Positions 6,063 to 23,613 of a stretch of 58,747 nt of DNA are shown here, in pieces. Within the stretch, counting starts at the first letter, position 1. Each line of letters starts with the position of its first letter. A program made the position numbers and the translations under genes. Below the pieces are notes generated by a model. It saw only the letters and a program-made list of their open reading frames with translations. It did no database searches and was not told the origin of the DNA. The DNA comes from a virus, in IMG/VR virus record IMGVR_UViG_3300032334_001918, positions 1-58,747 of that record; one strand, written 5' to 3'.

Positions 6063-6074
6063 ATAGGAATTTTT

Positions 6075-9555: not shown

Positions 9556-9560
9556 TTTAT

Positions 9561-10310
9561 ATGAAAATATTATGTTTTATTTTTTCTTGGAAAGGTCAAT
9601 ATATAAATGCAATTAACCTGGAAGAACAGGTTGCTCCATTTGTTGACCATTTAGTTGTAATCAATTCTGATGATGACAATAAGCCAAAACACTGGGTCAA
9701 TATCGGCAATGAATGCTATTTTTCCGATCAATTTAGAAAAGCTCTAGAGATCGCTAATCATTATGAGTATGATGTTCTGTGGCACATTCAAGCTGATGCA
9801 TCAATTGATTATGATGATATGCAATCTATAGTTAATGCAGCTAAGAAGACAAAAGAAAAATATGATTGGGGAATTTATGCACCCAATGTTGATGATACTT
9901 TTTATATTCCAGAAAGAACTGATGTGTTTAATTTAGAAAGTAATCTTAAAGTGGTTGCCACACCAGACAATACTTGTTGGATGATAACAAAAGATCTTAT
10001 AGATAAGATGAGATCAAATCTCCATTTAATGGAAACTAACCAATTAGGATGGGGTTGGGATTTAATTATTTGCGGACTCGCACACATAGAACAGAAGAAA
10101 GTTATAAGAGATTATAACTATACAGTGAATCATCCTAAATCTACAGGATATAAGAAAGAACAAGCTGAAATAGAAATGGCAGAAATGTTCGCTAAATGTC
10201 CAGATAGTTTAAAAGAAGCAATTTATTACATTAAAGTTCAGCCGCATAGTTTGGCTAAATTTTATGGAGTAGAGACAACCTCTAAATTATTCACATACAG
10301 TACCTATTAA
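9561..10310 (+). CDS. Putative GT-A type glycosyltransferase
   Basis: The 249-residue protein begins MKILCFIFSWKGQYINA and resembles small GT-A fold transferases. A hydrophobic strand VDHLVVINSDDD is followed by LWHIQADASIDYDDM, where QADAS sits where the metal-binding DxD is expected. A GWGWDLIICG segment later on resembles the acceptor/aspartate helix region of family 2-like enzymes. No membrane segment is visible, so it should be cytoplasmic. The gene lies 5 bases after colD and 4 bases before a GT10 gene, in the same operon. The sugar donor is unknown, and the match to a named family is weak. Confidence 0.55.
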   Translation: MKILCFIFSWKGQYINAINLEEQVAPFVDHLVVINSDDDNKPKHWVNIGNECYFSDQFRKALEIANHYEYDVLWHIQADASIDYDDMQSIVNAAKKTKEKYDWGIYAPNVDDTFYIPERTDVFNLESNLKVVATPDNTCWMITKDLIDKMRSNLHLMETNQLGWGWDLIICGLAHIEQKKVIRDYNYTVNHPKSTGYKKEQAEIEMAEMFAKCPDSLKEAIYYIKVQPHSLAKFYGVETTSKLFTYSTY

Positions 10311-10314
10311 AAAT

Positions 10315-11172
10315 ATGAATATTTGTTATCTAGATTTTTGGCCAGGATTTGACACAAATTGCAATTGGTTTAATCTTGTCTTTCGCGAAATTTTAAACGA
10401 TAGAGAAATTAACTTTAACTCTTCTCCTTCTGAGGCTGATGTTATTGTATTTTCTTGTTTTGGTAATGAGCACATAAAATATAAAAACAGTAAAGCTGTA
10501 AAGATATTCTATACTGGAGAAAATCAAAGAGCTGATTTAAGCGTTGCTGATTTTTCTTTAAGTTTTGATTACGAAACTCATAACGGCAAAAATTTTAGAC
10601 TGCCTCATTGGTACATGTATGTTAATTGGTGGGGTGAAGAAAATTTCCCTCACGCCAGAATAAGCAAAGAAAGATTATTCTATACACACACTCCAGAAGA
10701 AGTTTTTTCTAGAAATGATTTTTGCTGTGTAGTCATCGGTAATCCAGTAAGAAATAGAATAGAAGTTGCTCAAAAATTAGACTCATATAAACCAGTACAT
10801 GGATATGGGAAAGTTTTTGGAAATCCATACAATGGATGTAAGGTAGATTTAATAAGCAAATACAGATATAATATTTGCTTTGAAAATTCAATTTACCCAG
10901 GATACATAACAGAAAAACTACTTGAGGCTAAAGTTGCTGGATGCATCCCAATCTATTATGGTAGTGATACTGTAAGTACTGATTTTAACCCAGATTGTTT
11001 TATTAACTATAATAAATTTGAGAATCCTTCTGATTTACTTGAAGAGATTATTAAAATTGAAAGTAATCGTTCTCTATTTGATTCTTTTGTTTCTCAAAAA
11101 TTATTCACTCAAGAACCAAATTTAGATAACGTATATAATTTTTTGTCAAAGGCATTTAACAAATATGTATAA
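10315..11172 (+). CDS. GT10-family fucosyltransferase-like (alpha-1,3 type)
   Basis: The 285-residue protein matches the GT10 alpha-1,3/4-fucosyltransferase family. The C-terminal donor-binding block reads YNICFENSIYPGYITEKLLE, followed by AGCIPIYYGS. Upstream are the IFYTGENQRADLS and DYETH segments also seen in bacterial FucT enzymes. GT10 enzymes use GDP-L-fucose. Because the same operon can make GDP-L-colitose (3-deoxyfucose), this enzyme is a good candidate for attaching fucose or colitose to a surface glycan. The length is typical of short bacterial members without heptad repeats. It overlaps the next gene by 8 bases. Confidence 0.85.
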   Translation: MNICYLDFWPGFDTNCNWFNLVFREILNDREINFNSSPSEADVIVFSCFGNEHIKYKNSKAVKIFYTGENQRADLSVADFSLSFDYETHNGKNFRLPHWYMYVNWWGEENFPHARISKERLFYTHTPEEVFSRNDFCCVVIGNPVRNRIEVAQKLDSYKPVHGYGKVFGNPYNGCKVDLISKYRYNICFENSIYPGYITEKLLEAKVAGCIPIYYGSDTVSTDFNPDCFINYNKFENPSDLLEEIIKIESNRSLFDSFVSQKLFTQEPNLDNVYNFLSKAFNKYV

Positions 11173-12067
11173 AAATGTTTATGAAATAAATCAAATTTTG
11201 TCCGACATTCTCAAGAAAGGTGAGCCAAGCTCAATTTTACGAATATGTAACACATTGGGTTACGTCATTCATCGTCTCTGCACAAACCAACCAATCGATC
11301 ACCAATATTTCAATGTAAATCATTTTGTGGAAACTGGGATATTTCCCGTCTCTATGGAATATGCAATTTCTGTTATGCAGAATACATTTGATGTTATGCA
11401 AAAATCAAATGCTCTAGGGTTTGTTGACTGTTCTGGAGATATAAGTCGTGATTCTCAATTCTTAAATTTATTCCCAAATATTCCAAAATATTTTGGTAGC
11501 GCAATTATGGATCCAGGAGTATTATTTGGACATTCTGAATTTGGGGAAATAGAAAATCCATGGACAGAACAATTAGCTGGTAAAAAAGTTTTAGTTCTGT
11601 CGTCCCATATCCAAACTATAAATGAGCAATGGAAAAATATTGATGCTATTTGGGGAAAACGTAAAAACACGATAGTACCATTTGAATTAGCTGGAGTCAT
11701 CAATACACATTTCCATCCAATGGTTGATGATCGACAATATTCAAATTGCGACGATCTTATGTCATCTATTGAAATTACAAAACAAAAGATTGACCAATAT
11801 GACTATGATGTTTTATTATCAGGAATTGCGACACAATCTCCATTTTTCTGTCAACATGCCAAAGAAAGAGGAAAGATAGGAATTCACGTTGGCGGATCTT
11901 TACAATTATTCTTTGGGATTCTTGGAAATCGTTGGACAAAGGCTCCATGTTACAATTCATGGCATAATATGTTTAACGAACATTGGAAATATCCACTCAA
12001 GATTGATGAACCTCAGGGAAAAGATGTAACTAATCATTTAGAATTTTCTAATGCATATTGGGGGTAA
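11165..12067 (+). CDS. GT-D/DUF1792-like glycosyltransferase-like protein
   Basis: The 300-residue protein has an N-terminal SSILRICNTLGYVIHR segment and a C-terminal CQHAKERGKIGIHVGGSLQ followed by LFFGILGNRW. This combination is found in uncharacterised polysaccharide proteins related to the GT-D fold (DUF1792) glucosyltransferases. A YDYDVLLSGIATQSP strand precedes the HVGG motif. It is the last gene of the glycan operon and overlaps the GT10 gene by 8 bases. Transfer of a hexose is a reasonable guess, and the specific reaction is not known. Confidence 0.55.
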   Translation: MYKNVYEINQILSDILKKGEPSSILRICNTLGYVIHRLCTNQPIDHQYFNVNHFVETGIFPVSMEYAISVMQNTFDVMQKSNALGFVDCSGDISRDSQFLNLFPNIPKYFGSAIMDPGVLFGHSEFGEIENPWTEQLAGKKVLVLSSHIQTINEQWKNIDAIWGKRKNTIVPFELAGVINTHFHPMVDDRQYSNCDDLMSSIEITKQKIDQYDYDVLLSGIATQSPFFCQHAKERGKIGIHVGGSLQLFFGILGNRWTKAPCYNSWHNMFNEHWKYPLKIDEPQGKDVTNHLEFSNAYWG

Positions 12068-12082
12068 CTCTCTAAGTTGTTG

Positions 12083-12104
12083 ATTCTAATATAAATATTA
12101 GAAT
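12083..12104 (+). promoter_or_regulatory. Inverted repeat containing a T4-late-type box
   Basis: Nine-base arms ATTCTAATA and TATTAGAAT flank a four-base centre. The octamer TATAAATA at 12090-12097, identical to the T4 late promoter -10 consensus read by gp55, spans the repeat centre. It lies about 75 bases upstream of the HNH gene. The repeat is not followed by a T-run, so it does not look like a terminator. Use as a late promoter is inferred from the sequence match and from the gp33 gene in this window. Confidence 0.5.
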
Positions 12105-12113
12105 TGAAATTAA

Positions 12114-12142
12114 TTGCTTGTATTGTATTAATAGTATACAAT
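12114..12142 (+). promoter_or_regulatory. Sigma70-like promoter before the HNH gene
   Basis: A -35 element TTGCTT (12114-12119) is separated by 17 bases from a -10 element TACAAT (12137-12142). Spacing is ideal, the -10 box matches 5 of 6 consensus bases and the -35 box 3 of 6. The start would be near 12149, just before GAGAGG at 12164-12169 and the GTG of the HNH gene. Confidence 0.5.
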
Positions 12143-12174
12143 ATAGTGATAGGATATTAACTTGAGAGGTCATC

Positions 12175-12744
12175 GTGTCTACCAAAGTTTTGATCGCAGA
12201 CAAACAGGGCACACCTAAAGAATGGGTGTCACATAGAGATGCTGCGAATTACTACAGCAACGATAAAGTTCTGTGGGAAATTGGATCGCCAATTAAAGTC
12301 TATTATGGCGGAATTAATAAATTTGGCGAACAATCATCTTTGACAATTTCGTCAATCGTTGGCGTTAGTGGACCAATTCTTGGAACCAAATTCTACGATA
12401 AAGAAACAGTTTACGCAGAGCGCATGGTCATGTATGCTCGCGATCGGCATCTTTGCGCATATTGTGGAGATCAGTTCGAACCTGGAGAACTGACAATTGA
12501 CCACGTTCAACCAAAATCTCGTGGAGGCAAAAACACTTGGGTCAATTGCGTCACTGCATGCAAACCCTGTAATTTGCGAAAAGGTAACAAAACTCCAGAA
12601 GAAGCAAGAATGCATCTTTTGTATGTTCCATATGCTGTCAATATGTTCGAGCGCATGATTCTTAAGAATCGTAACATTCTTGCAGACCAGATGGATTTCT
12701 TAATTGCAAGAGTCCCGAAGCACAGCCGAATTTTAATGAACTAA
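12175..12744 (+). CDS. HNH endonuclease
   Basis: The 189-residue protein has an HNH nuclease core. CAYCGDQF supplies the first zinc Cys pair, LTIDHVQPKSRGG the Asp-His, and WVNCVTACKPCNLRKGN the Asn and second Cys pair (about residues 95-145). A C-terminal NILADQMDFLIARVPKHSR tail resembles a full-length HNH family common in proteobacterial chromosomes, so it may have been exchanged with a host. The start is GTG with GAGAGG at 12164-12169. It does not interrupt another gene, so homing activity is possible but not shown. Other roles could be DNA processing or degradation of host DNA. Confidence 0.85.
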   Translation: MSTKVLIADKQGTPKEWVSHRDAANYYSNDKVLWEIGSPIKVYYGGINKFGEQSSLTISSIVGVSGPILGTKFYDKETVYAERMVMYARDRHLCAYCGDQFEPGELTIDHVQPKSRGGKNTWVNCVTACKPCNLRKGNKTPEEARMHLLYVPYAVNMFERMILKNRNILADQMDFLIARVPKHSRILMN

Positions 12745-12749
12745 GAGCT

Positions 12750-12780
12750 CCTAAGCCATTGATTTCATTAAGGTTTTTTT
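12750..12780 (+). terminator. Weak rho-independent terminator after the HNH gene
   Basis: CCTAA (12750-12754) can pair with TTAAGG (12768-12773) if one base is bulged, and a run of seven T follows at 12774-12780. The stem is short, so the call rests mainly on the T-run and on the position after the HNH stop codon. Confidence 0.35.
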
Positions 12781-12783
12781 CTG

Positions 12784-12836
12784 TTGCCTTTTACGATGTA
12801 TTGTAGTAGAATATTCTTATACCGTAATGAAACGGT
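12784..12836 (+). promoter_or_regulatory. Sigma70-like promoter and leader hairpin before the winged-helix gene
   Basis: TTGCCT (12784-12789), a 17-base spacer and TAGAAT (12807-12812) form a good sigma70-type promoter. The hairpin ACCGT-AATGAA-ACGGT (12821-12836) lies right at the expected transcript 5' end and could stabilise the message or serve as an operator. A GTGAGG ribosome site precedes the ATG at 12873. Confidence 0.5.
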
Positions 12837-12872
12837 TCTTATTTTGTAATGTTAATGTGAGGTATCTAAACT

Positions 12873-13367
12873 ATGTCTAATTCTACCCAAGCCCATAATC
12901 TCTATAACCTTCTTGTTGCTGCTGGCGCCACTGGTGTCACTCGCGCAGATATCGCAACTCATCTTGGCGTCAGTGAAGGTTCTGTTCCCGTTTATATCTT
13001 TGGTCTGAAGAAGTTCTTCAGTGCTGAGATTGATAATATTAAGGATGGACGCAAGGTTGTTGCATATAAGCTGACCAATGCCTCTGATATTGAGGTTCCT
13101 TCTCATCGCCTGTATCGTCGTAACGATAATGGTGCTGTTATTCTCAGCAATCCTAGTGCTGGTGTCACTAAGCCTGTCAAGGCAACTAAGACCAAGGTGA
13201 CCAAGGTTGCTAAGAAGAAGGCTGCTAAGGTTGTAAACGTCACCAAGCCTAAGAGCAAGAAGATTATTATTGATGATGGTGACGTTGCTATCCTCGATAA
13301 AGATCTTGAGATCAGCGAGTTCACTGATGCTGAACTGAATGACATTCGGTCCACTCTCGGTCTGTAA
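12873..13367 (+). CDS. Winged-helix-like DNA-binding protein with basic histone-like tail
   Basis: The 164-residue protein has two visible parts. Residues about 8-75 look like a small winged helix (LLVAAGATGVTRADIATHLG, then YIFGLKKFF and a DGRKVVAYKL wing). Residues about 105-135 are rich in Lys, Ala, Val and Thr (KVAKKKAAKVV, KPKSKK), as in histone H1-type tails. An acidic C-terminus follows. The likely role is binding DNA, either as a regulator or in nucleoid handling. It has its own promoter and its stop overlaps the next ATG (TAATG), so the two are translationally coupled. Confidence 0.55.
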   Translation: MSNSTQAHNLYNLLVAAGATGVTRADIATHLGVSEGSVPVYIFGLKKFFSAEIDNIKDGRKVVAYKLTNASDIEVPSHRLYRRNDNGAVILSNPSAGVTKPVKATKTKVTKVAKKKAAKVVNVTKPKSKKIIIDDGDVAILDKDLEISEFTDAELNDIRSTLGL

Positions 13368-13933
13368 TGAATATATTCTATCTAGATAAAGATCCCAGGC
13401 TTGCCGCAGAATACCACTGCGACAAGCACGTGGTCAAAATGATTCTAGAATCTGCGCAGCTACTTTCGGCTGCGCATCGTCTTCTAGATGGAAACCTTGT
13501 CGAAGGTAAGAAGCAGGTTGCTGGATCTTTACCTGCTCGCTGGCGAAAAACTAAGAAGTGGGAGTTATCAGATGAACGTGAAAAAATTCTTTACAGCGCG
13601 AGCCACATCAATCATCCCTCTTGTGTATGGGCTCGAAGCAATATCGATCATTATCGTTACCTTTACGATCTATTTGTTTTCCTAATTGCAGAATACAAAT
13701 ATCGCTATAAAAATAAATCTCATAAATGCGAGGAATTGGTCGATACGCTGATTGATAGCCCGATTAATATCGATTACGAAGCTCCATGGCAAGATCCTCC
13801 GCAAGCAATGCCAGAAGATTGTAAAGTTCACAATGATACAGTCCTTGCATATCGAAACTACTACATAATGCATAAGTCGCATTTTGCGAAATGGACAAGG
13901 CGTCCCGAGCCTGATTGGTACAAACCTTCTTGA
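13367..13933 (+). CDS. Conserved phage hypothetical protein
   Basis: The 188-residue protein starts MNIFYLDKDPRLAAEYHCDK, followed by HVVKMILESAQLLSAAH, an N-terminus I recognise from uncharacterised proteins of marine T4-like phages. A central region has HINHPSCVWARSNIDHYRYL and the C-terminus has WKTHFAKW-like aromatic residues (HKSHFAKWTRRPEPDWY). Several conserved His, Asp and Trp residues suggest an enzyme, but no named domain can be assigned. The start shares one base with the preceding stop. Transcription probably comes from the 12784 promoter. Confidence 0.7.
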   Translation: MNIFYLDKDPRLAAEYHCDKHVVKMILESAQLLSAAHRLLDGNLVEGKKQVAGSLPARWRKTKKWELSDEREKILYSASHINHPSCVWARSNIDHYRYLYDLFVFLIAEYKYRYKNKSHKCEELVDTLIDSPINIDYEAPWQDPPQAMPEDCKVHNDTVLAYRNYYIMHKSHFAKWTRRPEPDWYKPS

Positions 13934-13934
13934 G

Positions 13935-13942
13935 TATAAATA
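13935..13942 (+). promoter_or_regulatory. T4-late-type promoter box TATAAATA
   Basis: An exact TATAAATA octamer lies only 5 bases before the ATG at 13948. In T4 the start site falls roughly 6-7 bases after this box, so a transcript from here would begin at or next to the start codon and have almost no leader. No ribosome-binding site is visible between the box and the ATG. Confidence 0.5.
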
Positions 13943-13947
13943 CAGTT

Positions 13948-14286
13948 ATGGAATATGCATTCAAAGTAATAAAAACTGGTGAAATCGTCAGATATGACAT
14001 GAAAATGTCAGAATATGATGCTTTCAAAAAAGATAACCCCCATTTAGAGCGTTATCATGAAACAGCACCACCATTTAAGGATGGTGATGGTAGTAGCACC
14101 AGTGGATTTGTTCCTAAATTGGACAATGGCTTTAAAGAAGTTCTATCTAAAATTGCAGAAGCTCATCCAGCAAGCGAGCTTTCTAAGAATTCAGATGTGC
14201 ATAGAAAGAGTATTAAAGAAATCAAAACACGTCGGATTATGACCAAATACGCAGAAAAATCAGGAATTAAAGGAGTCAAATTCTGA
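13948..14286 (+). CDS. Conserved T4-like phage protein, FmdB-like without cysteines
   Basis: The 112-residue protein begins MEYAFKVIKTGEIVRYDMKM and continues with SEYDAFKKDNPHLERY, like small phage proteins related in layout to FmdB regulators. The zinc-ribbon cysteines are absent. A GFKEVLSKIAEAHPASEL segment and a basic C-terminus (KEIKTRRIM) follow. I chose the ATG at 13948 because the upstream TTG at 13915 would place the start inside the preceding gene and give an extension unlike the family. A strong terminator follows. Function unknown. Confidence 0.65.
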   Translation: MEYAFKVIKTGEIVRYDMKMSEYDAFKKDNPHLERYHETAPPFKDGDGSSTSGFVPKLDNGFKEVLSKIAEAHPASELSKNSDVHRKSIKEIKTRRIMTKYAEKSGIKGVKF

Positions 14287-14348
14287 GTCTCAAAAAAGTT
14301 CGATTTACAATTTGTTTTATATAATGCATCATTTGTCTGGTCGCGAAA

Positions 14349-14388
14349 AGAGCAAAGACCTCGTGAGTGGTCTTGTGCTCTTTTTTTC
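14349..14388 (+). terminator. Rho-independent terminator
   Basis: AGAGCAAAGACC (14349-14360) pairs with GGTCTTGTGCTCT (14369-14381) with a single bulged G, around an 8-base loop, and runs into seven T. It ends the transcript of the 13948 gene and insulates the PhoH gene. Confidence 0.85.
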
Positions 14389-14417
14389 ATTTCAAAAACC
14401 GTTAAAAGAGAGAAACC

Positions 14418-15104
14418 ATGGCAAAAGCAAAAAAGAGCGTACAACAACACTTTTCCTTACGCAAGATTCAGCCGCTCACAGCGAATCAAGATAAGACCTT
14501 TAAAGGGTATGAAACGGGAAAAAATCTTCTTCTTCATGGCGTAGCTGGTACAGGTAAAACATATATCTCAATGTACCTCGCTCTACAAGAAGTATTGAAG
14601 ACTGATAGTCAGTATAATAAGATTGTTGTTATTAGAAGTGTTGTGCCTTCCAGAGATATGGGATTCTTACCAGGCTCTGCTAAAGATAAAGCAAAAGTGT
14701 ATGAAGAACCATATAAAGAGATTTGCGACGATTTATTTGGTAGAGGGGATGGATATGACATCCTAAGAATGAAGGGTCTTGTTGAGTTTGCCACAACATC
14801 ATTCCTTCGCGGCGTAACTTTTAGAGACGCTATTGTGGTTGTTGATGAATTTCAAAATATGAACCTTGCTGAACTTGATACCGTAATTACAAGAATCGGC
14901 AATAATTGTAAGATAATTTTCTGCGGCGACATTCGTCAGTCAGACTTTGTAAAGAAAGAAGAACGTCAAGGAATGTTGACTTTCATGAAGATTATAGATA
15001 AAATGAATCTATTCGATAAGGTTGAGTTTGATGTCGAGGATATCGTAAGAAGTGCCCTCGTGAAGAATTATATAATTTCCAAATTAGCAGTAGGTATAAC
15101 TTGA
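14418..15104 (+). CDS. phoH: PhoH-like P-loop ATPase
   Basis: The 228-residue protein is a PhoH-family NTPase, very common in marine phages. Walker A GVAGTGKT lies near residues 41-48 and Walker B IVVVDEFQNM near 138-147. An RSVVPSRDMGFLPG segment and an IIFCGDIRQSD sensor strand also match the family. PhoH proteins are linked to RNA metabolism or phosphate stress, but their role in phages is unproven. AGAGAG precedes the ATG by about 7 bases. The stop overlaps the TTG start of the exonuclease gene (TTGA), so the two are coupled. Confidence 0.9.
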   Translation: MAKAKKSVQQHFSLRKIQPLTANQDKTFKGYETGKNLLLHGVAGTGKTYISMYLALQEVLKTDSQYNKIVVIRSVVPSRDMGFLPGSAKDKAKVYEEPYKEICDDLFGRGDGYDILRMKGLVEFATTSFLRGVTFRDAIVVVDEFQNMNLAELDTVITRIGNNCKIIFCGDIRQSDFVKKEERQGMLTFMKIIDKMNLFDKVEFDVEDIVRSALVKNYIISKLAVGIT

Positions 15105-15766
15105 AACAATTTAAACATGATTTTGTCACCCTTCCTAAGATGCAGCGCATCAACGAAGATGGTAGTCGTTATTATTTGACGCCAGAAGGAAACCGTTACC
15201 AGTCAGTTACAACGCTGACTGGTAACTGGAATAAGAAAGCCATTCTTGAGTGGCGTGAGCGTGTTGGTGAGAAGAAGGCAACTGAAATCTCAACTCGTGC
15301 CGCATCTCGCGGCACGAGTCTCCATAAGACGGTAGAGCAGTATTTGTTAAATGAAGATGTTGACTTCGGTCCTAATCCTCTGACTAAATCACTCTTCCAT
15401 AGAATTAAGCCGATTGTCGATCGACTCGATAATATCAAGTTGGTCGAAGGTACGATGTACAGCGACACTCTAAAACTGGCTGGAACTACCGACTGTATTG
15501 CTGAGTATAGTGGAAAGCTTGCTGTTATTGACTTCAAAACTTCTACGAAGGCTAAGAAGAAAGAACACATTTCAAACTACTTTATGCAGGGTGCTGCTTA
15601 CGGTAGGATGTATGAAGAGCTCTATAATCAAACTCCAGAGATCGTTGTAATTATGATGGCAGTCGAAAGTATGCCATACCCGATTACGTTCATCGAACCA
15701 TATGCAAAATGTAATGAAATGCTTATGGATTTTATGAAATCTCTTGACAAAGAACTACTAGTATAG
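15101..15766 (+). CDS. PD-(D/E)XK exonuclease (RecB/Cas4-like)
   Basis: The 221-residue protein is a RecB-like nuclease. A TSLHKTVEQYL helix with the conserved His is followed by GTTDCIAEY (catalytic Asp near residue 130) and AVIDFKTS (Asp-X-Lys near 144-146). QGAAYGRMYEEL matches the downstream Gln motif of these nucleases. It probably trims DNA during replication or recombination, or degrades host DNA. The start is TTG in a TTGA overlap with phoH. The next in-frame ATG is 13 codons in, inside the N-terminal segment. A promoter -35 lies in its last codons. Confidence 0.85.
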   Translation: MKQFKHDFVTLPKMQRINEDGSRYYLTPEGNRYQSVTTLTGNWNKKAILEWRERVGEKKATEISTRAASRGTSLHKTVEQYLLNEDVDFGPNPLTKSLFHRIKPIVDRLDNIKLVEGTMYSDTLKLAGTTDCIAEYSGKLAVIDFKTSTKAKKKEHISNYFMQGAAYGRMYEELYNQTPEIVVIMMAVESMPYPITFIEPYAKCNEMLMDFMKSLDKELLV

Positions 15767-15772
15767 TATAGT
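15744..15772 (+). promoter_or_regulatory. Strong sigma70-like promoter
   Basis: A perfect -35 TTGACA (15744-15749), a 17-base spacer and -10 TATAGT (15767-15772) lie at the very end of the exonuclease gene. It would drive the 15813 gene, the 70-residue gene, the tmRNA and possibly beyond. Confidence 0.7.
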
Positions 15773-15776
15773 ATAA

Positions 15777-15784
15777 TATAAATA
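15777..15784 (+). promoter_or_regulatory. T4-late-type promoter box TATAAATA
   Basis: An exact late-type octamer starts 4 bases after the sigma70-like -10 element, inside a TATAGTATAGTATAATATA run. Early and late promoters appear stacked ahead of the tmRNA operon, which would keep it expressed in both phases. Confidence 0.55.
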
Positions 15785-15812
15785 GAGCTATAATTTACAC
15801 TCAAAGGGGCTA

Positions 15813-16154
15813 ATGATCATGTTTTACGTTTTTCTCGCGGCATTAGCCGTTATTGTGGCTGCAGCTGTTTACTTCTCTTTCAGAACTTCTAAGAAAGAGG
15901 TTGAAGTTGCAGTTCAAGAATTTAATGATTTGTATACAGACTCTCTTGCAAAAGAACTCGAGGCTCAGAAAAAGTTTGAAGCTGAATATTATTCCAACAT
16001 CAACGATGTGGTTGAGTTTGAGAATGTTGAGGTTCCTATGTATCCTGTTGTTGAGAAGAAAGCGGCAAAGAAGAAAGCTGCTAAGAAAAAGTCTACGAAG
16101 AAAACTTCTAAGAAAAGAACAGCCAACAAGGTTGTAAAAGATGAAGAAGTTTAA
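15813..16154 (+). CDS. Small membrane-anchored protein with lysine-rich tail
   Basis: The 113-residue protein starts with a hydrophobic helix (FYVFLAALAVIVAAAVYF, residues about 4-21) followed by positive residues, which fits a single N-terminal anchor with the rest in the cytoplasm. An acidic, helical middle (EVEVAVQEFNDLYT) leads to a Lys/Ala/Thr-rich tail (KKAAKKKAAKKKSTKK). AAGGGG at 15804-15809 is better spaced for the second ATG at 15819 than for the first at 15813, so the true start may be two codons later. Function unknown. The basic tail could bind DNA or RNA near the membrane. Confidence 0.6.
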   Translation: MIMFYVFLAALAVIVAAAVYFSFRTSKKEVEVAVQEFNDLYTDSLAKELEAQKKFEAEYYSNINDVVEFENVEVPMYPVVEKKAAKKKAAKKKSTKKTSKKRTANKVVKDEEV

Positions 16155-16353
16155 ATCCTGGATTAGCGAACAAATGTCGACTGATGCTGGTGTTAGAGGC
16201 ATGGGTTATGTTAGCGGTAGTGGCGATGGAGATTCTCCAAGTTACCTCGACAATAACATAGCTGATGCTGATACTAGAAATAATATTATTAAGGCTATAT
16301 CCACACAGCATGTAGATATGCATAAATCGACTAAGGCTACAAAAGGTAAATAA
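16141..16353 (+). CDS. Small hypothetical protein
   Basis: This 70-residue protein starts MKKFKSWISEQMSTDAG inside the end of the preceding gene (14-base overlap). The opening resembles that of several small proteins of T4-like phages (Met-Lys-Xaa-Phe-Lys with Trp or Phe). The middle is Gly/Ser/Asp-rich and polar, with no membrane segment. The stop lies a few bases before the acceptor piece of the tmRNA, so it probably shares the tmRNA transcript. Function unknown. Confidence 0.55.
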   Translation: MKKFKSWISEQMSTDAGVRGMGYVSGSGDGDSPSYLDNNIADADTRNNIIKAISTQHVDMHKSTKATKGK

Positions 16354-16357
16354 TTGA

Positions 16358-16650
16358 AATGGTAGTAAACCTTTAACTAAAGGCATCTTGGACGGGGGTG
16401 CGATTCCCCCCATCTCCACCAAAAGCATACTATAGAAACACATGAGCAGGTTTCTAACTATCGCTGGTTACGGCAATCGTAAGTGAGTATAGGTAGTATG
16501 CTTTTGATGGGGATGACCAGTTTCGACAGGGTGAGTAATAACCTAGAGGCTACCAGTGAGGCGACTGACTTAATCAGCGCAAAAAAAGTAAAAGCAAACG
16601 ATAGCAATTACGACATGGCACTAGCCGCTTAATAGTGGTGTAGGTTTCCA
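16358..16650 (+). ncRNA. ssrA: Permuted (two-piece) tmRNA
   Basis: tmRNA frees stalled ribosomes and adds a degradation tag. Here the 3' acceptor piece comes first, with T arm GGGGG-TGCGATT-CCCCC, strand CATCTCC (16411-16417) and an encoded CCA at 16419-16421. The 5' coding piece starts GGGGATG at 16509 and pairs with CATCTCC, including one G-U pair. CAGGGTG (16527-16533) pairs with CATCTTG (16384-16390) as helix 2. The tag frame starts at GCA 16594 and ends with TAA TAG at 16630-16635; including the charged Ala the tag is AANDSNYDMALAA. CACTA/TAGTG (16619-16623, 16633-16637) forms the stop-region hairpin. The 87-base segment between the pieces is closed by a 12-base-pair stem. The outer ends are estimates. 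Confidence 0.88.
16421..16505 (+). repeat. Inverted repeat closing the tmRNA intervening segment
   Basis: AAAAGCATACTA (16421-16432) and TAGTATGCTTTT (16494-16505) are perfect 12-base complements. They join the 3' end of the acceptor piece to the region just before the coding piece, as expected for the spacer that is cut out of permuted tmRNA precursors. RNase P cleavage would be expected at 16509. Confidence 0.85.
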
Positions 16651-16658
16651 GAGTTTTC

Positions 16659-16691
16659 GGTAGGTTTTCTTGGTAACAGAATAAACCTACC
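16659..16691 (+). ncRNA. Leader hairpin, copy 1 of a covarying pair
   Basis: A nine-base-pair stem GGTAGGTTT/AAACCTACC encloses a 15-base loop TCTTGGTAACAGAAT. AGTTTTC precedes the stem. A second copy at 16996 has the same loop except for one base and two compensated stem changes. It lies between the tmRNA and the 16728 gene, 21 bases before its AAAGGAG ribosome site. Confidence 0.65.
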
Positions 16692-16727
16692 ATTTTGATG
16701 ACACACATACACACAAAGGAGACGAAG

Positions 16728-16979
16728 ATGACACCATTTGAAATTAGACTAGAGCTGGTCAAGCTCGCAAGAGACATGCTCAACGACGAATACCACAGCA
16801 AGCGTGGATTAGTTGAGACAGATTGGAACAATCAGGTCATGTCGGCAATGAACAATCAAAAGGCATTGCCCGATACCCCAGCGTTCCCCCAGTACTTTAC
16901 TGAAGAAGATGTAATTGTTAAGGCTTCGCGCCTCAACGAGTTCATCTCTAATGGACAATTTCTACCAACTAAACTTTAG
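16728..16979 (+). CDS. Conserved small phage protein
   Basis: The 83-residue protein begins MTPFEIRLELVKLARDMLND, followed by EYHSKRGLVE. I recognise this as a recurring uncharacterised protein of marine T4-like phages. It is mostly helical with a conserved PAFPQYFTEEDVIVKASRLN stretch and no cysteine or membrane segment. The ATG at 16728 is chosen because AAAGGAG sits 8 bases upstream, whereas the ATG at 16695 lacks a ribosome site. It is bracketed by the two copies of the leader hairpin. Function unknown. Confidence 0.7.
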   Translation: MTPFEIRLELVKLARDMLNDEYHSKRGLVETDWNNQVMSAMNNQKALPDTPAFPQYFTEEDVIVKASRLNEFISNGQFLPTKL

Positions 16980-16995
16980 TAAGTAACAAGTTTTC

Positions 16996-17028
16996 GGCAG
17001 CTTTTCTTGGAAACAGAATAAAGCTGCC
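16996..17028 (+). ncRNA. Leader hairpin, copy 2 of a covarying pair
   Basis: The stem GGCAGCTTT/AAAGCTGCC (nine base pairs) surrounds the loop TCTTGGAAACAGAAT. Compared with copy 1, a T-A pair is replaced by C-G and a G-C pair by C-G, while loop and upstream AGTTTTC are kept. It ends 7 bases before the AAGGAG of the cell-wall hydrolase gene. Confidence 0.65.
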
Positions 17029-17046
17029 ACTCATTAAGGAGATAAT

Positions 17047-17640
17047 GTGAAATCTGTATCTATGAACGCACTAGACATGGTGCGTATGTGTGTTTTTTTG
17101 TTCTTTTTTTCTGGTACGTTTTTTCTTGCTGGTGAATTGTATCGAGCCAAGGTTCGTTACGATAACCTTGAGTATGAATTATATAACGATCAGAAATCTG
17201 CTGATGATATCATCAAAGACCTCCGCAAGAAACTTTCTCACGTAGAATTCATTCGTAATGAGACAGAGTGTCTCGCCAAGAATATCTACTTTGAGTCGCA
17301 TACCGAATCGCGCGAGGGTCAATTGGCTGTTGCTACTGTAACGATGAATCGAGTAAAGAGCGGACTTTTCCCACATACGGTTTGTGGAGTTGTACTCGAT
17401 AAGAGCAGCAAAGGTTGTCAATTCTCTTGGGTCTGCGATGGCAAAACCGATATTGTTCGCAACCGCGAAGATTACAAAGAATCGATTGAACTTGCTGAAG
17501 AAGTTTTGCTTTCTAAGAAAAGATCGAGTATAATATCTTCTGATGTGTTATACTATCACGCCGATTACGTCGATCCATACTGGGCTAAGACCAAAAAATT
17601 CTTTGGTAAAATTGGTGCCCACTTGTTCTACAGAGGTTAA
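17047..17640 (+). CDS. SleB-like cell-wall hydrolase with N-terminal anchor
   Basis: The 197-residue protein carries a Hydrolase_2 (SleB) peptidoglycan hydrolase domain from about residue 75. ECLAKNIYFESHTESREGQ with the catalytic Glu is followed by TVTMNRV, CQFSWVCDG and VLYYHADYV. The N-terminus has a hydrophobic segment (VFLFFFSGTFFLAG, about 15-28) that acts as signal anchor, as in SAR-type endolysins. A role as the lysis enzyme is likely, with release from the membrane as trigger. The start is GTG at 17047 with AAGGAG at 17035-17040. The ATG two bases earlier runs straight into a stop. Confidence 0.85.
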   Translation: MKSVSMNALDMVRMCVFLFFFSGTFFLAGELYRAKVRYDNLEYELYNDQKSADDIIKDLRKKLSHVEFIRNETECLAKNIYFESHTESREGQLAVATVTMNRVKSGLFPHTVCGVVLDKSSKGCQFSWVCDGKTDIVRNREDYKESIELAEEVLLSKKRSSIISSDVLYYHADYVDPYWAKTKKFFGKIGAHLFYRG

Positions 17641-17643
17641 TAT

Positions 17644-18684
17644 ATGATTGTTGATAATGAAGTGAAATTAGATTATTCTGACGTTTTGATTGTTCCTAGA
17701 GAATCTGAACTGACTAGTCGCGCGCAAGTCGATTTAAATATTGACCACTATGGTAAGCCTGTTGTGCCAATCATCGCTGCTAACATGGATGGCGTTGGCA
17801 CTTTTGCAATGGCTAAAAAGTTGGCTAAGTACAAGATGATGACTGCTCTTTTGAAGCACTATTCCCTCGAAGATCTAACAGAGTTTTATTCAGATGAAGA
17901 TTCACGCTATACCTTTTATAGTATGGGCACTAACGAAGACGATTATAATAAGTTTGTTGAGTTTGATAGGTTGCTATCTACTAATGATTTGCACGCTCCT
18001 ATTGGGATTTGTATTGATGTTGCTAACGGTTACACTCGTAGTTTTGAGACATTCGTTACGAAAATGTCGGAGAATTATCCAAGTTATGTTTTGATGGTTG
18101 GTAATGTTGTAACTCCAGAACGAACTGAACGTCTAATTGAAGCTGGCGCAGATATTGTAAAAATTGGAATTGGTCCTGGCTCAGTATGCACAACTCGTAG
18201 GTTGGCAGGTGTCGGCTACCCACAATTTTCTGCGGTTCTAGAATGTGCTGCAGCTGCTGATGCTGCAGGTGGCTCTATTGTTGCTGATGGTGGGATTACT
18301 TGCCCAGGTGATGCTGCTAAGGCATTTGCAGCTGGTGCCAAGTATGTTATGCTTGGTGGTATGCTTGCTGCCCATGAGGAAGGTCTCCCAGAAGACCATA
18401 AAGATAAGTCCCTATATATGAGCAACGTTCCTTTTTATGGAATGGCGTCAAAAGCAGCCCAAGAAAAATATAATGGTGGTGTTGCAGAATATCGTGCTTC
18501 TGAGGGGAAGGAAGTTATTCTGAAATATCGTGGACCCGTTGATGACACTGTGAAAGAACTTTTAGGTGGAATTCGTTCCGCTTGCACCTACCTTGGTGCA
18601 GAAGATATTTCTCAGATGCATCGTCGGGCAAAATTCGTTAAGGTCAACAGGGTGTTAAACAATGTCTTTGGCAATGTTATTTGA
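17644..18684 (+). CDS. guaC: GMP reductase (IMPDH/GMPR family)
   Basis: The 346-residue protein matches GMP reductase, which converts GMP to IMP with NADPH. The catalytic Cys lies in GIGPGSVCTTR near residue 182. VADGGITCPGD, VMLGGMLA, FYGMASKAA and GGVAEYRASEG follow the GuaC pattern rather than that of IMP dehydrogenase. No CBS domain is present and length equals E. coli GuaC. In infection it would redirect guanine nucleotides toward the adenine branch to adjust the nucleotide pool to AT-rich phage DNA (inference). It starts 3 bases after the hydrolase stop. Confidence 0.9.
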   Translation: MIVDNEVKLDYSDVLIVPRESELTSRAQVDLNIDHYGKPVVPIIAANMDGVGTFAMAKKLAKYKMMTALLKHYSLEDLTEFYSDEDSRYTFYSMGTNEDDYNKFVEFDRLLSTNDLHAPIGICIDVANGYTRSFETFVTKMSENYPSYVLMVGNVVTPERTERLIEAGADIVKIGIGPGSVCTTRRLAGVGYPQFSAVLECAAAADAAGGSIVADGGITCPGDAAKAFAAGAKYVMLGGMLAAHEEGLPEDHKDKSLYMSNVPFYGMASKAAQEKYNGGVAEYRASEGKEVILKYRGPVDDTVKELLGGIRSACTYLGAEDISQMHRRAKFVKVNRVLNNVFGNVI

Positions 18685-18730
18685 TTCGGAATTCGTAGAA
18701 CAATCTACCAATAAAAGAGAGATAATCTTA

Positions 18731-18952
18731 ATGGCAACAAAGGAAGAAAAACAAAACTTTTCTTTACAAATAGAAACACTAGCAGCCACATTAGGAATTT
18801 CTTACATTGAAGCAATCACCCACCACTGCGAAGCGACTGGGTTAGAAGTTGAGATGGCAGCAACTTTAATTAATGACAGTTTAAAGTCTAAAGTAGAATG
18901 TGAAGCTCAACAGCTGAGATACCTCCCAAGAGGTTCCAGTTTGCCTATATGA
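18731..18952 (+). CDS. 33: Late transcription coactivator, T4 gp33-like
   Basis: The 73-residue protein (MATKEEKQNFSLQIETLAAT, then LGISYIEAITHHCEATGL) resembles cyanophage gp33 proteins, which connect the sliding clamp to RNA polymerase for late transcription. The call rests heavily on the T4-like order 33-59-32, which is exact here. Its C-terminal QLRYLPRGSSLP would be the clamp-contact end. The ATG at 18731 follows AGAGAG. An ATG at 18662 inside guaC would add 23 residues without a ribosome site. The stop overlaps the gp59 ATG (ATGA). Confidence 0.72.
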   Translation: MATKEEKQNFSLQIETLAATLGISYIEAITHHCEATGLEVEMAATLINDSLKSKVECEAQQLRYLPRGSSLPI

Positions 18953-19557
18953 ACGGTTTCGACGCCTTTCAAATATACAATTCTGTTCGTTTACATTTTC
19001 TTAATGATGGGTTTGATTTCTTTCGGTACAATGGTAAATCTAAAATTTCTCTAGAAGCTTTTGAGAAGAAGAAAGACAAATACCTGTTTCACAAAATTGC
19101 TAGAATGTTTACAGAAGAAGAGTTACCATACTTCTATGCTGTAAACTTTCTAAAGAATGATAAAGTTTGGGTTAACTCTTTAGTTCAGGATGAAGCGTCC
19201 AAGAAGTTTAAGAGTTGGGTCAAATGGCAGCAAGCAAGAACTCATAACTTTAAAGAGGACTTGATTAAGCTTGCTGAAATGGATTTCGGGACGTTGATTG
19301 TTTGTAAAGATAACCAACATCCTGAATTGTTGAATCTTGTATTTCAAAATGAAATAGATTATGATACGCTGGTCATGTTAGACCATTTTATCAAGTTTAC
19401 AGAATCTTGGAATAAGAAGATAGGTGATGATTTTATTTGGGAAGAGTTTTACAAGAAGTTTAAAAAGTACAAGCCATTCTTTACAGGTTACGCGCCTTTG
19501 AGTGAGCCTCACTATGTAAAACTTCTGAAAGAATATTTGACTCCACCGAGTAAATGA
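18949..19557 (+). CDS. 59: Helicase loader, T4 gp59-like
   Basis: The 202-residue protein aligns with T4 gp59, which loads the gp41 helicase on gp32-covered forks. The N-terminal half has FFRYNGKSKISLEAFEKKKD and KYLFHKIARMF. T4 gp59 has a similar Tyr-Asn and Lys-Lys-Asp pattern. The C-terminal half has LVMLDHFIKFTESWNKK, like the T4 segment LLDSFLNII. It overlaps gp33 by 4 bases and is followed by gp32, as in T4. It acts in the cytoplasm at replication and recombination forks. Confidence 0.88.
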   Translation: MNGFDAFQIYNSVRLHFLNDGFDFFRYNGKSKISLEAFEKKKDKYLFHKIARMFTEEELPYFYAVNFLKNDKVWVNSLVQDEASKKFKSWVKWQQARTHNFKEDLIKLAEMDFGTLIVCKDNQHPELLNLVFQNEIDYDTLVMLDHFIKFTESWNKKIGDDFIWEEFYKKFKKYKPFFTGYAPLSEPHYVKLLKEYLTPPSK

Positions 19558-19565
19558 TATATAAT
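19537..19565 (+). promoter_or_regulatory. Sigma70-like promoter before gp32
   Basis: TTGACT (19537-19542), a 17-base spacer and a perfect TATAAT (19560-19565) form a strong promoter that begins in the last codons of gp59. It gives gp32, needed in large amounts, its own transcript start around 19572, with a leader of about 60 bases. Confidence 0.75.
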
Positions 19566-19630
19566 ATAGTTGTTATGATGATAATTGGACAAGTCGCATA
19601 CTTTTAATACTACGCATAAGGAATATACAA

Positions 19631-20494
19631 ATGAATCTTAGTTCACTAAAAAAGAAGTCCTCGTTCGACAAACTCACCAAGGCTATCGAAGGTCTTGGCA
19701 ATCAGAAATCTGGCGGTAGCGATAACCGCTTCTGGGTTCCTGATGTCGACAAGGCAGGCAATGGCTACGCAGTAGTTCGTTTCCTCGATTCCCCCCAAGT
19801 TGATGGCGAAGATGGCATGCCTTGGGTTCAGCTCTTCAATCACGGTTTCCAAGGACCAGGTGGCTGGTATATCGAGAACTGCCTCACTTCTATCAACCAG
19901 AAGTGCCCAGTTTGCGAGCACAATACTTCACTCTGGAACAGCGGTATCGAATCCAATAAGGATGTGGTTCGTAAGCAGAAGCGCAAGCTGACCTATATTG
20001 CCAACGTTTTGGTTCTCAAGGATCCTGCCAAGCCCTCTAACGAAGGTAAGGTTTTCCTCTTCAAGTTCGGTAAAAAGATCTTTGATAAGATCAAGGAAAA
20101 GATCGAGCCACAGTTTGAGGATGAGAAGGCAATCAATCCGTTTAACTTCTGGGAAGGTGCAAACTTCAAGCTCAAGATCCGTAACGTCGAAGGCTATCGT
20201 AACTACGATAAGTCTGAGTTCGATAGTGTTTCGGCACTGTTTGATGGTGATGATGCAGAAATTGAAACTGCTTGGAAAGAAGCGCATTCGCTGAAGGCAT
20301 TCTTGAGTCCTTCTGACTTTAAGCCTTACGATGAGCTTAAGGCTAAGTTGAATCGCGTTCTTGGTGTTGGTGGTGTCAAGCCCCGTACTGCGAGCGTCGA
20401 GGATGTCGAGATTGATGAGGAAGTTAACGTTCCAACCACTGATAGTGGTGATGACGATACTCTTTCTTACTTCAGTAAGTTGGCTTCTGAGTAA
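19631..20494 (+). CDS. 32: Single-stranded DNA-binding protein, T4 gp32-like
   Basis: The 287-residue protein coats single-stranded DNA in replication, repair and recombination. The N-terminus has the basic LAST-type segment SLKKKSSFDKL. A zinc site is visible in NHGFQGPGG (His near 70) with CLTSINQKCPVCEHN (Cys near 83, 91 and 94). The C-terminus is acidic (VEDVEIDEEVN, DSGDDD), as needed for binding partner proteins. Codon use is richer in C-ending codons than nearby genes, typical of a highly expressed protein. It has its own promoter and a strong terminator. Confidence 0.95.
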   Translation: MNLSSLKKKSSFDKLTKAIEGLGNQKSGGSDNRFWVPDVDKAGNGYAVVRFLDSPQVDGEDGMPWVQLFNHGFQGPGGWYIENCLTSINQKCPVCEHNTSLWNSGIESNKDVVRKQKRKLTYIANVLVLKDPAKPSNEGKVFLFKFGKKIFDKIKEKIEPQFEDEKAINPFNFWEGANFKLKIRNVEGYRNYDKSEFDSVSALFDGDDAEIETAWKEAHSLKAFLSPSDFKPYDELKAKLNRVLGVGGVKPRTASVEDVEIDEEVNVPTTDSGDDDTLSYFSKLASE

Positions 20495-20501
20495 TCAGAA
20501 C

Positions 20502-20577
20502 AAAACGTCCGAATTATGTACGCTTGTGGATGACCTTGCATCCCACCAGTAAAATGGGGCGGTTCCAGTGACGTTTT
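20502..20577 (+). other. Structured 3' region after gp32
   Basis: AAAACGTC (20502-20509) and GACGTTTT (20570-20577) are perfect complements. The enclosed 60 bases contain an inner GTGGATG/CATCCCAC stem (one bulged C). It forms a compact branched structure between the gp32 stop and the terminator. It is not a tRNA. It may protect the gp32 message or be a small RNA. Confidence 0.45.
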
Positions 20578-20578
20578 A

Positions 20579-20606
20579 GGGGAGACAGAAATGTCTCCCC
20601 TTTTTT
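20579..20606 (+). terminator. Rho-independent terminator after gp32
   Basis: GGGGAGACA (20579-20587), a GAAA tetraloop and TGTCTCCCC (20592-20600) are followed by six T. The T-run touches the stop codon of the convergent minus-strand gene. Confidence 0.92.
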
Positions 20607-22689
20607 ACATCTTATAGATTCCCGGATGCACAACAGGATGATCGAAGATTGAAGCAACATAAGTTGAAACTGAGATCTCATCATTTCTGACTTGGATGTA
20701 TTCAGGTTGAGTACTCTTATTGAGTTTTCCCATTACAGCATCAAAGCCAGCCTTCATCATTTTAGGAAGTTCACCTTGAGGTTGTGAATTGACGACAGAT
20801 ACTTGAGCTGGCTTATCTTCTTTTAATGATGCATTTTCTGACGACAGTGGAGCAACTTGTTGTTCTTGTCTATTTGGAGTTGGTGCTGGTCTCTCAATCT
20901 TACCTCTAACCACTCCTTGCGCGTCTGGATTTGCGCCAGGTTTAATTTTTTGCTGCACTTCGGTAGGTAATTCATTTTTAGAAACAACCTTGCCATCTGG
21001 TCCTTTATACTTTCCAGGCGCAACTAGCTCATATCCAGTTCCCTTAAGCTTACTATTTGTTGTTGCCGCCCTTTGTGCGAAAGTAGACTCACCAGCTTTT
21101 GCTGCAGCATTACCCTCAGCATTTTGTCCAGTTATTGCACCAACGCCTGAAGCAGTCCAATCGCTCGCCGCCCTTCCAGTTAATGCTTCTGTTCCTGCAT
21201 CAATTCCTTTACCCACAAGATATCCTGCTGCGCCAGCCCCAGCTATTGCAGCAAGTGGTCCAGCTAATCTCAATAGAGGACCAAGCAACTTGCCAATTCC
21301 GCCAAGTAAAGAACCCATCAAACCACCAAGAAGCGCCTTCAATAATCCACCCTTTCCATCTTCCATGTCTTCTAATTTCTGTAGAATTTTATCTAGTTTA
21401 TCAATCATCATCTTGCGGTCTTCACCAGAAGCTTCTGCAGATTGTGCTGCAGCTGATTGGGCTGCGCCCCGTTCAGCTAACTGTTGAGTAGATGTTGAAT
21501 CGCTTTGTGGTGTAATTTCTGATTTGTTAGGATTAGCTTCACCATTTAATGTTTGGAATGCAGCTTCCTGTTGTTGTTTGTCACCAAACTTTCTTGCAAT
21601 CTTTAGCGAGTTCTTTTCGCCAACAACCATCTTGGTTGCACCAAATAAGAACTTTTTAAATTTGCTCTTTGAACCATATCTCATCACATCTTGCGCTTGT
21701 TCTACTTCGTCTTTGCGTTTTGAGTATTCCTCGAAGTTCTTTGGTCTATTTGGATCTTGTTGGTCTCCTCCACCCTGTGGAGCTCCTCCTCCTGAAGGTT
21801 CTTTCTTAGAAGCAATCAATAAAAGACCTTCATCTTGCAATTCTTTCTTTATTTGCTCAACTAATCCTTTAGCTGTAGCCTGATCAATTTTGTCGAGTGT
21901 TTGTCCTGATGGCTTGGAGGTTAGTTCTAGATTATCATTTATTTTTCTAGCGTCTTGTTGTTCTTTTTTGGCAACTAGATCCTGATTACCCAAAAAAGCA
22001 GCCTTAGATAATACCTTCTGGTAGTCACTATTTGCACCCTCTTTAGATGCAATTCCTCCAGCTAGTCCAGATTCTTGAACTTCAGTGACCTGCTTGCCTT
22101 CTGGTGCAAGAGGGTCAAATCTAAATGTTTGAGCATTTTCGCCCTTACCAACTGTTAAGCCTCGAGGTGAGAGGCGTTTCTCGATTCTGTCTATAGTTTC
22201 TTGAAGTTCAGGTATATCTTTCAAAGCTTCTTTAACTTGATCAATAACTTTCTTGAGTTCTGCTTTAACAACTCTTTCAGTTTTATTATTGATTGACTTT
22301 TTTGTTGACTCTAATTTCTTGTTTATCTTTTCTGATTGTTGTTGTAGTGCCGCAGTATCCGCACCACCTGATTGATTTTTATCACCTCTATCTCCATATA
22401 AAGTTTGAAATGCTTCTTCTTGAAGTTTCTTATTGCCGAACTTTCTAGCAATCTTTTCAGCATTCTTTTCGCCAACAATAGAAGATGTTGCACCAAAAAG
22501 TAGTTTTCTTCCACCACCTGCTCCACCATAGCGCATCACATCTTGAGCTTTTTCTATTTGATCTAAGCGAGATGAAAATTCTTCAAATGACTCGGAACCT
22601 TTTGCAGCTGCAGCTGGTCGAACACCAGGGTTGGTGTTTAGTTGCGAAGAAATATTTTTTAATCCAATACCAGCTGAGGTCTTTCTCAT
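20605..22689 (-). CDS. Large virion protein with internal duplication (tape-measure or hub candidate)
   Basis: The 694-residue protein is not clearly recognisable. Two copies of one module are visible at about residues 35-100 and 318-384. Each runs from an FEEFSSR/FEEYSKR start through AQDVMRYG, LFGAT, VGEKN and IARKFG to an AFQTL end. Coiled-coil-like stretches lie between. A Gly/Leu-rich hydrophobic block (about 447-490, GGLMGSLLGGIGKLLGP) resembles segments of tail tape-measure proteins. It follows gp26 and a gp51-like gene, where T4 has the hub genes 27-28-29, so a gp29-like role is possible. The stop codon overlaps the terminator T-run of gp32. Confidence 0.5.
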   Translation of the reverse strand: MRKTSAGIGLKNISSQLNTNPGVRPAAAAKGSESFEEFSSRLDQIEKAQDVMRYGGAGGGRKLLFGATSSIVGEKNAEKIARKFGNKKLQEEAFQTLYGDRGDKNQSGGADTAALQQQSEKINKKLESTKKSINNKTERVVKAELKKVIDQVKEALKDIPELQETIDRIEKRLSPRGLTVGKGENAQTFRFDPLAPEGKQVTEVQESGLAGGIASKEGANSDYQKVLSKAAFLGNQDLVAKKEQQDARKINDNLELTSKPSGQTLDKIDQATAKGLVEQIKKELQDEGLLLIASKKEPSGGGAPQGGGDQQDPNRPKNFEEYSKRKDEVEQAQDVMRYGSKSKFKKFLFGATKMVVGEKNSLKIARKFGDKQQQEAAFQTLNGEANPNKSEITPQSDSTSTQQLAERGAAQSAAAQSAEASGEDRKMMIDKLDKILQKLEDMEDGKGGLLKALLGGLMGSLLGGIGKLLGPLLRLAGPLAAIAGAGAAGYLVGKGIDAGTEALTGRAASDWTASGVGAITGQNAEGNAAAKAGESTFAQRAATTNSKLKGTGYELVAPGKYKGPDGKVVSKNELPTEVQQKIKPGANPDAQGVVRGKIERPAPTPNRQEQQVAPLSSENASLKEDKPAQVSVVNSQPQGELPKMMKAGFDAVMGKLNKSTQPEYIQVRNDEISVSTYVASIFDHPVVHPGIYKM

Positions 22690-22868
22690 CTTCTTTTAGC
22701 CCTATTAGTTTGATTAGCCAACTTAATCTTCTCATTCTCTTCTTTTATGTGCGCAGTTAGAAGATTAACATAGATCTCTCTTTCCCAAGGCAACATATTT
22801 TCAAGCTCAGTCAATGAATATTTGTGATGGTGTATTAATGTAAAATTCGTCGTATAGTATGTCTTCAA
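22686..22868 (-). CDS. 51: Baseplate hub assembly catalyst, gp51-like
   Basis: The 60-residue protein carries YSLTELENMLPWEREIYVNL and a charged C-terminal helix (KEENEKIKLANQ). A Leu-Pro-Trp-Glu-Arg motif of this type is what I recall for gp51 of cyanophages, and it also echoes small tail-assembly chaperones of other phages. The gene directly follows gp26, the same neighbour as in T4 (26-51). Its stop overlaps the start of the large duplication protein by 4 bases. It would help hub assembly without staying in the virion. Moderate confidence because the protein is short. Confidence 0.55.
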   Translation of the reverse strand: MKTYYTTNFTLIHHHKYSLTELENMLPWEREIYVNLLTAHIKEENEKIKLANQTNRAKRR

Positions 22869-22885
22869 ACAGTCATGACCAAAGC

Positions 22886-23602
22886 TTAGAGAAAAAAATC
22901 GTTGAGACCCTCCAGCACCATATTGTGCTCAAATCCGCATCTAGGGCAATTATGCTGTTTAGAATACTGGACTGTTGGTGTGGTCTTTGTAAAAGATAAT
23001 AACTTATCATAATCATTGCTTGATAGGTTATTGACAAATTCTATGAGTTCTTCTTCAGAAGATTCATCTGCATCTATAACACTTTCTTCATCAAAAATTT
23101 TGTCGATACAATCTACCATCAACCTCACTTGCGCTTGAACTGGATCTTCATCTTCTATCTTTAATTGATTGATAGAAGGATATCTCATCAATACGCCAAT
23201 TTTATTATTAAACATAATTTTCTTGGCTGCAGCAAGGTTAATAATCTGAACTTCATTTAAAAGGTCGACAGACATATCAATGACCATATCGCATTCTTTT
23301 TCTTCAACGATATTTTTACACTTAAAGTAAATGTCGACGTTTTCTCCAACAGAGCGAGCTCTTAAATTTAAGAAGAAAAATTCTAGATCTACTAAAGGTA
23401 ACTTAGTGACATCAATTTCGTCTAGAACACAATTATTGATAATTTGCACCAATGCATGAACAATTGTTTCTGGATTCGTTGACTCAACAGCCATCATCAA
23501 TAGTTTTTGTTCTTTGACTAGAAATGGTCTAAACCGAACAGGGTCTTTAACAGATTGCAGTTGTATCGTGTATGTTGGATATTCAATTTTAGGCAGAGCC
23601 AT
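22886..23602 (-). CDS. 26: Baseplate hub protein, gp26-like
   Basis: The 238-residue protein resembles gp26 of T4-like marine phages. It opens MALPKIEYPTYTIQLQSV and has the conserved RFRPFLVKEQKLLMMA. A central KCKNIVEEKECDM and a C-terminal CPRCGFEH look like paired Cys clusters of a small zinc-binding region. Similar proteins are hub assembly subunits. The order gp26 then gp51-like matches T4. It follows gp54-like on the same strand after 11 bases. Confidence 0.78.
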   Translation of the reverse strand: MALPKIEYPTYTIQLQSVKDPVRFRPFLVKEQKLLMMAVESTNPETIVHALVQIINNCVLDEIDVTKLPLVDLEFFFLNLRARSVGENVDIYFKCKNIVEEKECDMVIDMSVDLLNEVQIINLAAAKKIMFNNKIGVLMRYPSINQLKIEDEDPVQAQVRLMVDCIDKIFDEESVIDADESSEEELIEFVNNLSSNDYDKLLSFTKTTPTVQYSKQHNCPRCGFEHNMVLEGLNDFFL

Positions 23603-23613
23603 ATATAATCACC

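Follow-up and report, generated by a model that had tools for sequence, protein, structure and literature searches.

Permuted tmRNA genes in T4-like phages have already been published: one was described in the T4-like phage Melnitz and in 17 of 47 contigs clustering with Melnitz, and 53 of the 133 unique phage tmRNA structures in that study were two-piece (PMC9004378). The tmRNA database holds 79 bacteriophage sequences (PMC11915505), and huge phages with both tmRNA and SmpB have been reported (PMC7162821). The gene analyzed here, from a 58,747-base virus record in IMG/VR (the whole stretch analyzed, hereafter the window), is another example of this rarer, rearranged form of tmRNA. Less expected is its membership of an apparently phage-only lineage, in which tags are mostly 12-14 residues long and the segment between the two pieces ranges from 4 to 143 nt. 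We found no description of such a lineage, or of its minimal intervening segments, in the searchable literature.

The permuted (two-piece) tmRNA gene at the window locus is complete. By cmscan, the tmRNA_permuted model RF04321 matched 16361-16632 on the + strand over its entire length (model positions 1-213 of 213; 144.7 bits, E 1.5e-28, cut-off 47 bits), and the beta_tmRNA model RF01850 gave a full-length match at 16308-16692 (+) (120.9 bits, E 2.6e-36, gathering cut-off 84 bits), the top-scoring type within its Rfam clan. The original prediction, made from the sequence alone, had called a permuted two-piece tmRNA in a T4-like phage, with the acceptor piece upstream of the coding piece and piece ends near 16421 and 16509. 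All of this was confirmed; RF04321 aligned in full, the encoded CCA ends at 16421, and G1 lies at 16509. Its features are as follows, with the evidence for each.

16361..16421 (+): acceptor piece, 61 nt (RF04321 alignment; covariation)
Inside 16361..16421 (+): 5′ strand of helix 2 (RF04321 alignment)
16394-16410 (+): T arm (RF04321 alignment; covariation)
16411-16417 (+): 3′ acceptor strand CATCTCC (RF04321 alignment; covariation)
Acceptor piece (+): discriminator A, then the encoded CCA at 16419-16421 (RF04321 alignment)
16422..16508 (+): intervening segment, 87 nt, a long hairpin prolonging the acceptor stem (fold; piece boundaries)
16509..16692 (+): coding piece, the 3′ end approximate and taken from the end of the RF01850 match (RF01850 and RF04321 alignments)
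16509-16515 (+): 5′ acceptor strand GGGGATG (RF01850 and RF04321 alignments)
Order within the coding piece (+): GGGGATG, GUUUCGAC, 3′ strand of helix 2, tag frame, 3′ hairpin (RF01850 and RF04321)
16560..16583 (+): core signature GGCGACTGACTTAATCAGCGCAAA (pattern scans)
16594-16629 (+): tag reading frame ANDSNYDMALAA, followed by the stop codon TAA at 16630-16632 (ARAGORN -ps90; purifying selection)
16659..16691 (+): 3′ hairpin GGTAGGTTT / AAACCTACC, end of the coding piece (fold; RF01850 alignment)
15744..15772 (+): candidate sigma-70-like promoter, TTGACA-17-TATAGT, 11/12 (consensus scan only)

The gene thus has the T arm, the G3-U70 alanine identity pair, the resume codon and the stop-terminated tag frame expected of a two-piece tmRNA. 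Infernal and ARAGORN had both been named as checks with the original prediction. Infernal agreed through both models, while ARAGORN reported no tmRNA in the window at default settings and recovered the permuted gene, with tag ANDSNYDMALAA, at the lowered threshold of -ps90, so that the miss at default settings comes from the threshold. The idea that ARAGORN is blind to the whole lineage was rejected, since default settings found 70 of 71 genes bearing the core signature and missed the window gene. RF04321 also matched above its cut-off in four phages in which no tmRNA was annotated: Stenotrophomonas phage DLP6 (L003), Pseudomonas phage SM1 (L269), Caulobacter phage CcrRogue (L268) and Acinetobacter phage BUCT628 (L270).

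CATCTCC and GGGGATG pair across the two pieces at 7 of 7 positions, including the G3-U70 wobble. The fold of 16412-16520 had a z-score of -5.9, with none of 200 shuffles as stable, and the whole gene folded with a z-score of -4.3 against shuffles. Covariation and tag codons were assessed in an alignment of 57 distinct relatives, in which the acceptor stem, T arm and helix 2 all covary. One T-arm pair showed 31 two-sided changes and one acceptor pair 19, and none of the acceptor and T-arm pairs was broken, the acceptor covariation being partly conditioned by the extraction, which demanded at least 6 of 7 acceptor pairs. G3-U70 was invariant (57/57). In the tag codons, 78% of single-base differences were synonymous, compared to a neutral expectation of 21% and to 9-10% out of frame; these percentages come from pairwise comparisons whose pairs are not independent. 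Therefore, both the tRNA-like and the mRNA-like parts have been under selection in this lineage. The product of the window gene very probably works as a tmRNA. SmpB was not found in the window record or in the records of 23 other tmRNA-bearing relatives, many of them fragments, and host SmpB is therefore presumably used.

These data also bear on a possible decoy role. Mycobacteriophage DS6A likewise encodes a tmRNA relative, which consists of the tRNA-like domain only and carries no tag frame, and which has been proposed to titrate host SmpB or to block host trans-translation (PMC4131195, PMC11915505). That precedent makes a competitor conceivable here; however, a decoy would need no tag, whereas the window tag frame is complete and under purifying selection in its lineage, and the alanine identity pair is invariant. 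We consider this role quite unlikely for the window gene.

Genes for a PhoH-like protein and an exonuclease lie upstream of the tmRNA gene, and those on its downstream side encode a cell-wall hydrolase, an IMPDH-like dehydrogenase, a T4-type helicase loader and a gp32-type SSB, with T4-type tail and baseplate genes beyond. The phage is considered T4-like because of the SSB, the helicase loader and the tail and baseplate proteins. The nearest relatives of its gp32, at ~53-56% identity, are in Pelagibacter phage Mosig, unassigned marine viruses and cyanophages, and nothing in the phage collection matched window positions 8000-24000 closely at the DNA level. The acceptor piece starts 7 nt past the stop codon of the ORF at 16141-16353, and with this short gap and the candidate promoter at 15744-15772, transcription is likely to occur by read-through. 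A riboswitch search of 15700-17700 returned only the tmRNA, plus two sub-threshold, chance-like matches with E up to 1. The neighboring exonuclease is encoded by four viral contigs, all four of which have a permuted tmRNA at the same locus, and the closest syntenic relative (L096) shows a compensatory acceptor change from A-U to C-G relative to the window. As to other genes, the IMPDH-like dehydrogenase at 17644-18684 adjoins the cell-wall hydrolase, the left end (409-7079) encodes metabolic genes for a zinc alcohol dehydrogenase domain, an E1/transketolase-like protein and a sugar-nucleotide epimerase, and an HNH endonuclease gene at 12175-12744 has a relative in the same position in L097.

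Since integration often takes place at tmRNA genes (PMC11915505), the locus could have been a non-functional remnant or a leftover of an integration site. No integrase gene is present in the window, and only 1 of 10 related records has one; moreover, both pieces are complete, and the covariation and tag selection extend across the lineage. This explanation is barely credible for the window gene.

In order to place the gene among viral and cellular tmRNAs, we used a 22-base core pattern, GGCGACTGACNNAATCAGCGCAAA, just before the tag. Viral stretches with this core numbered at least 119. An exact-pattern scan of 84,980 bacterial and archaeal species genomes, run without a positive control, gave no match to the core and none to a second exact pattern from the window gene. 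The core is borne by 88 distinct tmRNAs, of which 81 showed automatic 7/7 pairing in permuted order. Among the remaining seven, one is cut by a contig end and six show permuted acceptor halves by eye; in these six the search anchor is altered to TTTGAC, CTCGAC or TTCGAT, and L145 lacks the full encoded CCA. Six signature contigs are 150 kb or longer, and each of them has a gene for the T4 capsid protein gp23. A FastTree tree was built from 143 permuted tmRNAs (about 190 nt, midpoint rooting, named bacterial tmRNAs not included). In it, the window and most signature tips, together with L102 and L111, formed a clade with support 0.986, and the signature bearers L039, L125, L202, L223 and phage Marzo were placed outside it. 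The window tmRNA falls in a supported and apparently phage-only clade.

It had also been proposed that the gene was probably acquired from a proteobacterial host. This can stand at most as ancient ancestry, with the best type-specific score being betaproteobacterial. That the phage recently took up the permuted tmRNA gene of its present host is quite unlikely: although the betaproteobacterial model ranks first and most marine phage tmRNAs in the Melnitz study group by host lineage (PMC9004378), such a capture is not supported, because the core is widespread in viral stretches and absent from the scanned species genomes, and because the window tmRNA is nested within the viral clade. We believe, with a probability of roughly 85%, that a T4-like phage has here a working ssrA gene of the permuted kind, and that the gene belongs to a long-established phage lineage whose permuted tmRNAs are of betaproteobacterial type. 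Related permuted tmRNAs were also found in isolates infecting Stenotrophomonas, Pseudomonas and Acinetobacter, bacteria whose own tmRNA, including that of the hosts of DLP6, SM1 and BUCT628, is, as far as known, one-piece.

Compared to the families described by RF04321 and RF01850, to both of which it aligns at full length, the window gene has the same piece order, acceptor and T arm, helix 2, resume codon and tag. It differs in being viral, in its encoded tag of 12 residues with DM ahead of ALAA, and in a core signature that the exact-pattern scan did not find in species genomes. With the ssrA gene of the methylophage Melnitz and related pelagimyophages it shares a T4-like phage background, permuted order and a single gene, and no phage SmpB was noted for either; Melnitz ssrA, however, shows alphaproteobacterial kinship and control by a glutamine riboswitch (PMC9004378), whereas the window gene is of betaproteobacterial type and has no riboswitch match nearby. 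The top matches to the window gene in the phage collection, both in permuted order, were from the Stenotrophomonas phages Marzo (Menderavirus) and DLP6. Marzo, whose tmRNA is annotated and lies inside a tRNA cluster, has the core signature in common with the window, but the Marzo and DLP6 tags, ANDDSYTVRIAA and ANDDSFAPMAIAA, are unlike that of the window, and both phages fall outside its main clade.

The tag was originally read as AANDSNYDMALAA. That sequence counts in the alanine that comes from charging; the tag as encoded is ANDSNYDMALAA. With the charged alanine, it contains the AANDxxY and ALAA elements of the E. coli tag with two residues inserted between them, and most tags of the clade have extra residues at this position (DM, EM, TPM and similar). 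In E. coli, these elements bind SspB and ClpX, respectively; no SspB gene is present in the window. Long tags are usual in alphaproteobacteria too. In E. coli, the extended degron AANDENYSENYALAA has a lower KM without SspB (1.55 vs 3.38 uM), and with SspB it is cleared faster with KM unchanged (PMC8512704). Our hypothesis is that the phage tags may exploit this effect. The phage tags offer natural variants for studying how proteolysis depends on the distance between the SspB-like and ClpX-like elements.

A working scheme can be suggested for this phage gene. A single precursor would be transcribed with the acceptor half ahead of the coding half, and the 87-nt hairpin between the CCA (16421) and G1 (16509) would probably be excised by host RNase P and 3′-processing enzymes, leaving two RNAs joined through the acceptor stem and helix 2. 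This excision may not be efficient, since the CCA is partly paired within the long hairpin predicted for the precursor. The molecule would then be charged with alanine by host AlaRS via G3-U70 and, together with host SmpB, enter stalled ribosomes and add AANDSNYDMALAA. In this way, ribosome recycling could be kept up and truncated proteins removed while mRNAs are cut during infection. The original suggestion that the gene may maintain ribosome rescue fits the evidence for selection. The findings suggest that a wide set of T4-like viruses keeps up ribosome rescue as a function, with tags of their own, instead of carrying a host gene by accident.

The intervening segment, 4 to 143 nt long in the signature set, differs in length even among close tmRNAs (window, 87 nt; L082, 93; L110, 52; L105 and L115, 4). 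Sixteen genes have only 4-5 nt (e.g. CTAC, TCTAT) from the encoded CCA to G1, namely L105, L115, L119, L124, L127, L131, L190, L192, L193, L198, L203, L205, L207, L212, L215 and L216, and their precursor acceptor stem is therefore capped by a loop of 8-9 nt. Compared to L082, the window is 98.4% identical in the acceptor piece and 96.7% in the coding piece, with unrelated intervening segments; compared to L096, the intervening segment is 98.9% identical and the acceptor and coding pieces only 90.2% and 81.7%. The window tmRNA is a mosaic, as if mature pieces and intervening segment had been swapped separately. A more general picture, to which we give somewhat less than even odds, is that the permuted tmRNAs of T4-like phages and their relatives form a lineage confined to viruses and distinct from the bacterial ones. 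In this picture, the segment between CCA and G1 would be a cassette that is open to exchange and can be reduced to 4-5 nt, and the residues inserted between the SspB-like and ClpX-like tag elements would tune how rescued proteins are degraded during infection. The natural series of lengths from 4 to 143 nt could be used as a test of RNase P and 3′ maturation of permuted tRNA-like molecules.

Two further ideas about this segment were rejected. It is not recognizable as a widespread element: its pattern occurred in 40 viral stretches, which were not all inspected singly, and the tmRNA locus was recognized only in L106, the contig of L096. Micro-ORFs within the segment (L082, L102, L183) were not above dinucleotide shuffles overall, with a mean p of 0.50 in 19 signature segments and 2 of them at or below 0.05. 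In L183, the 143-nt segment contains a 51-codon frame (p 0.02 relative to shuffles) whose product would resemble a small membrane protein.
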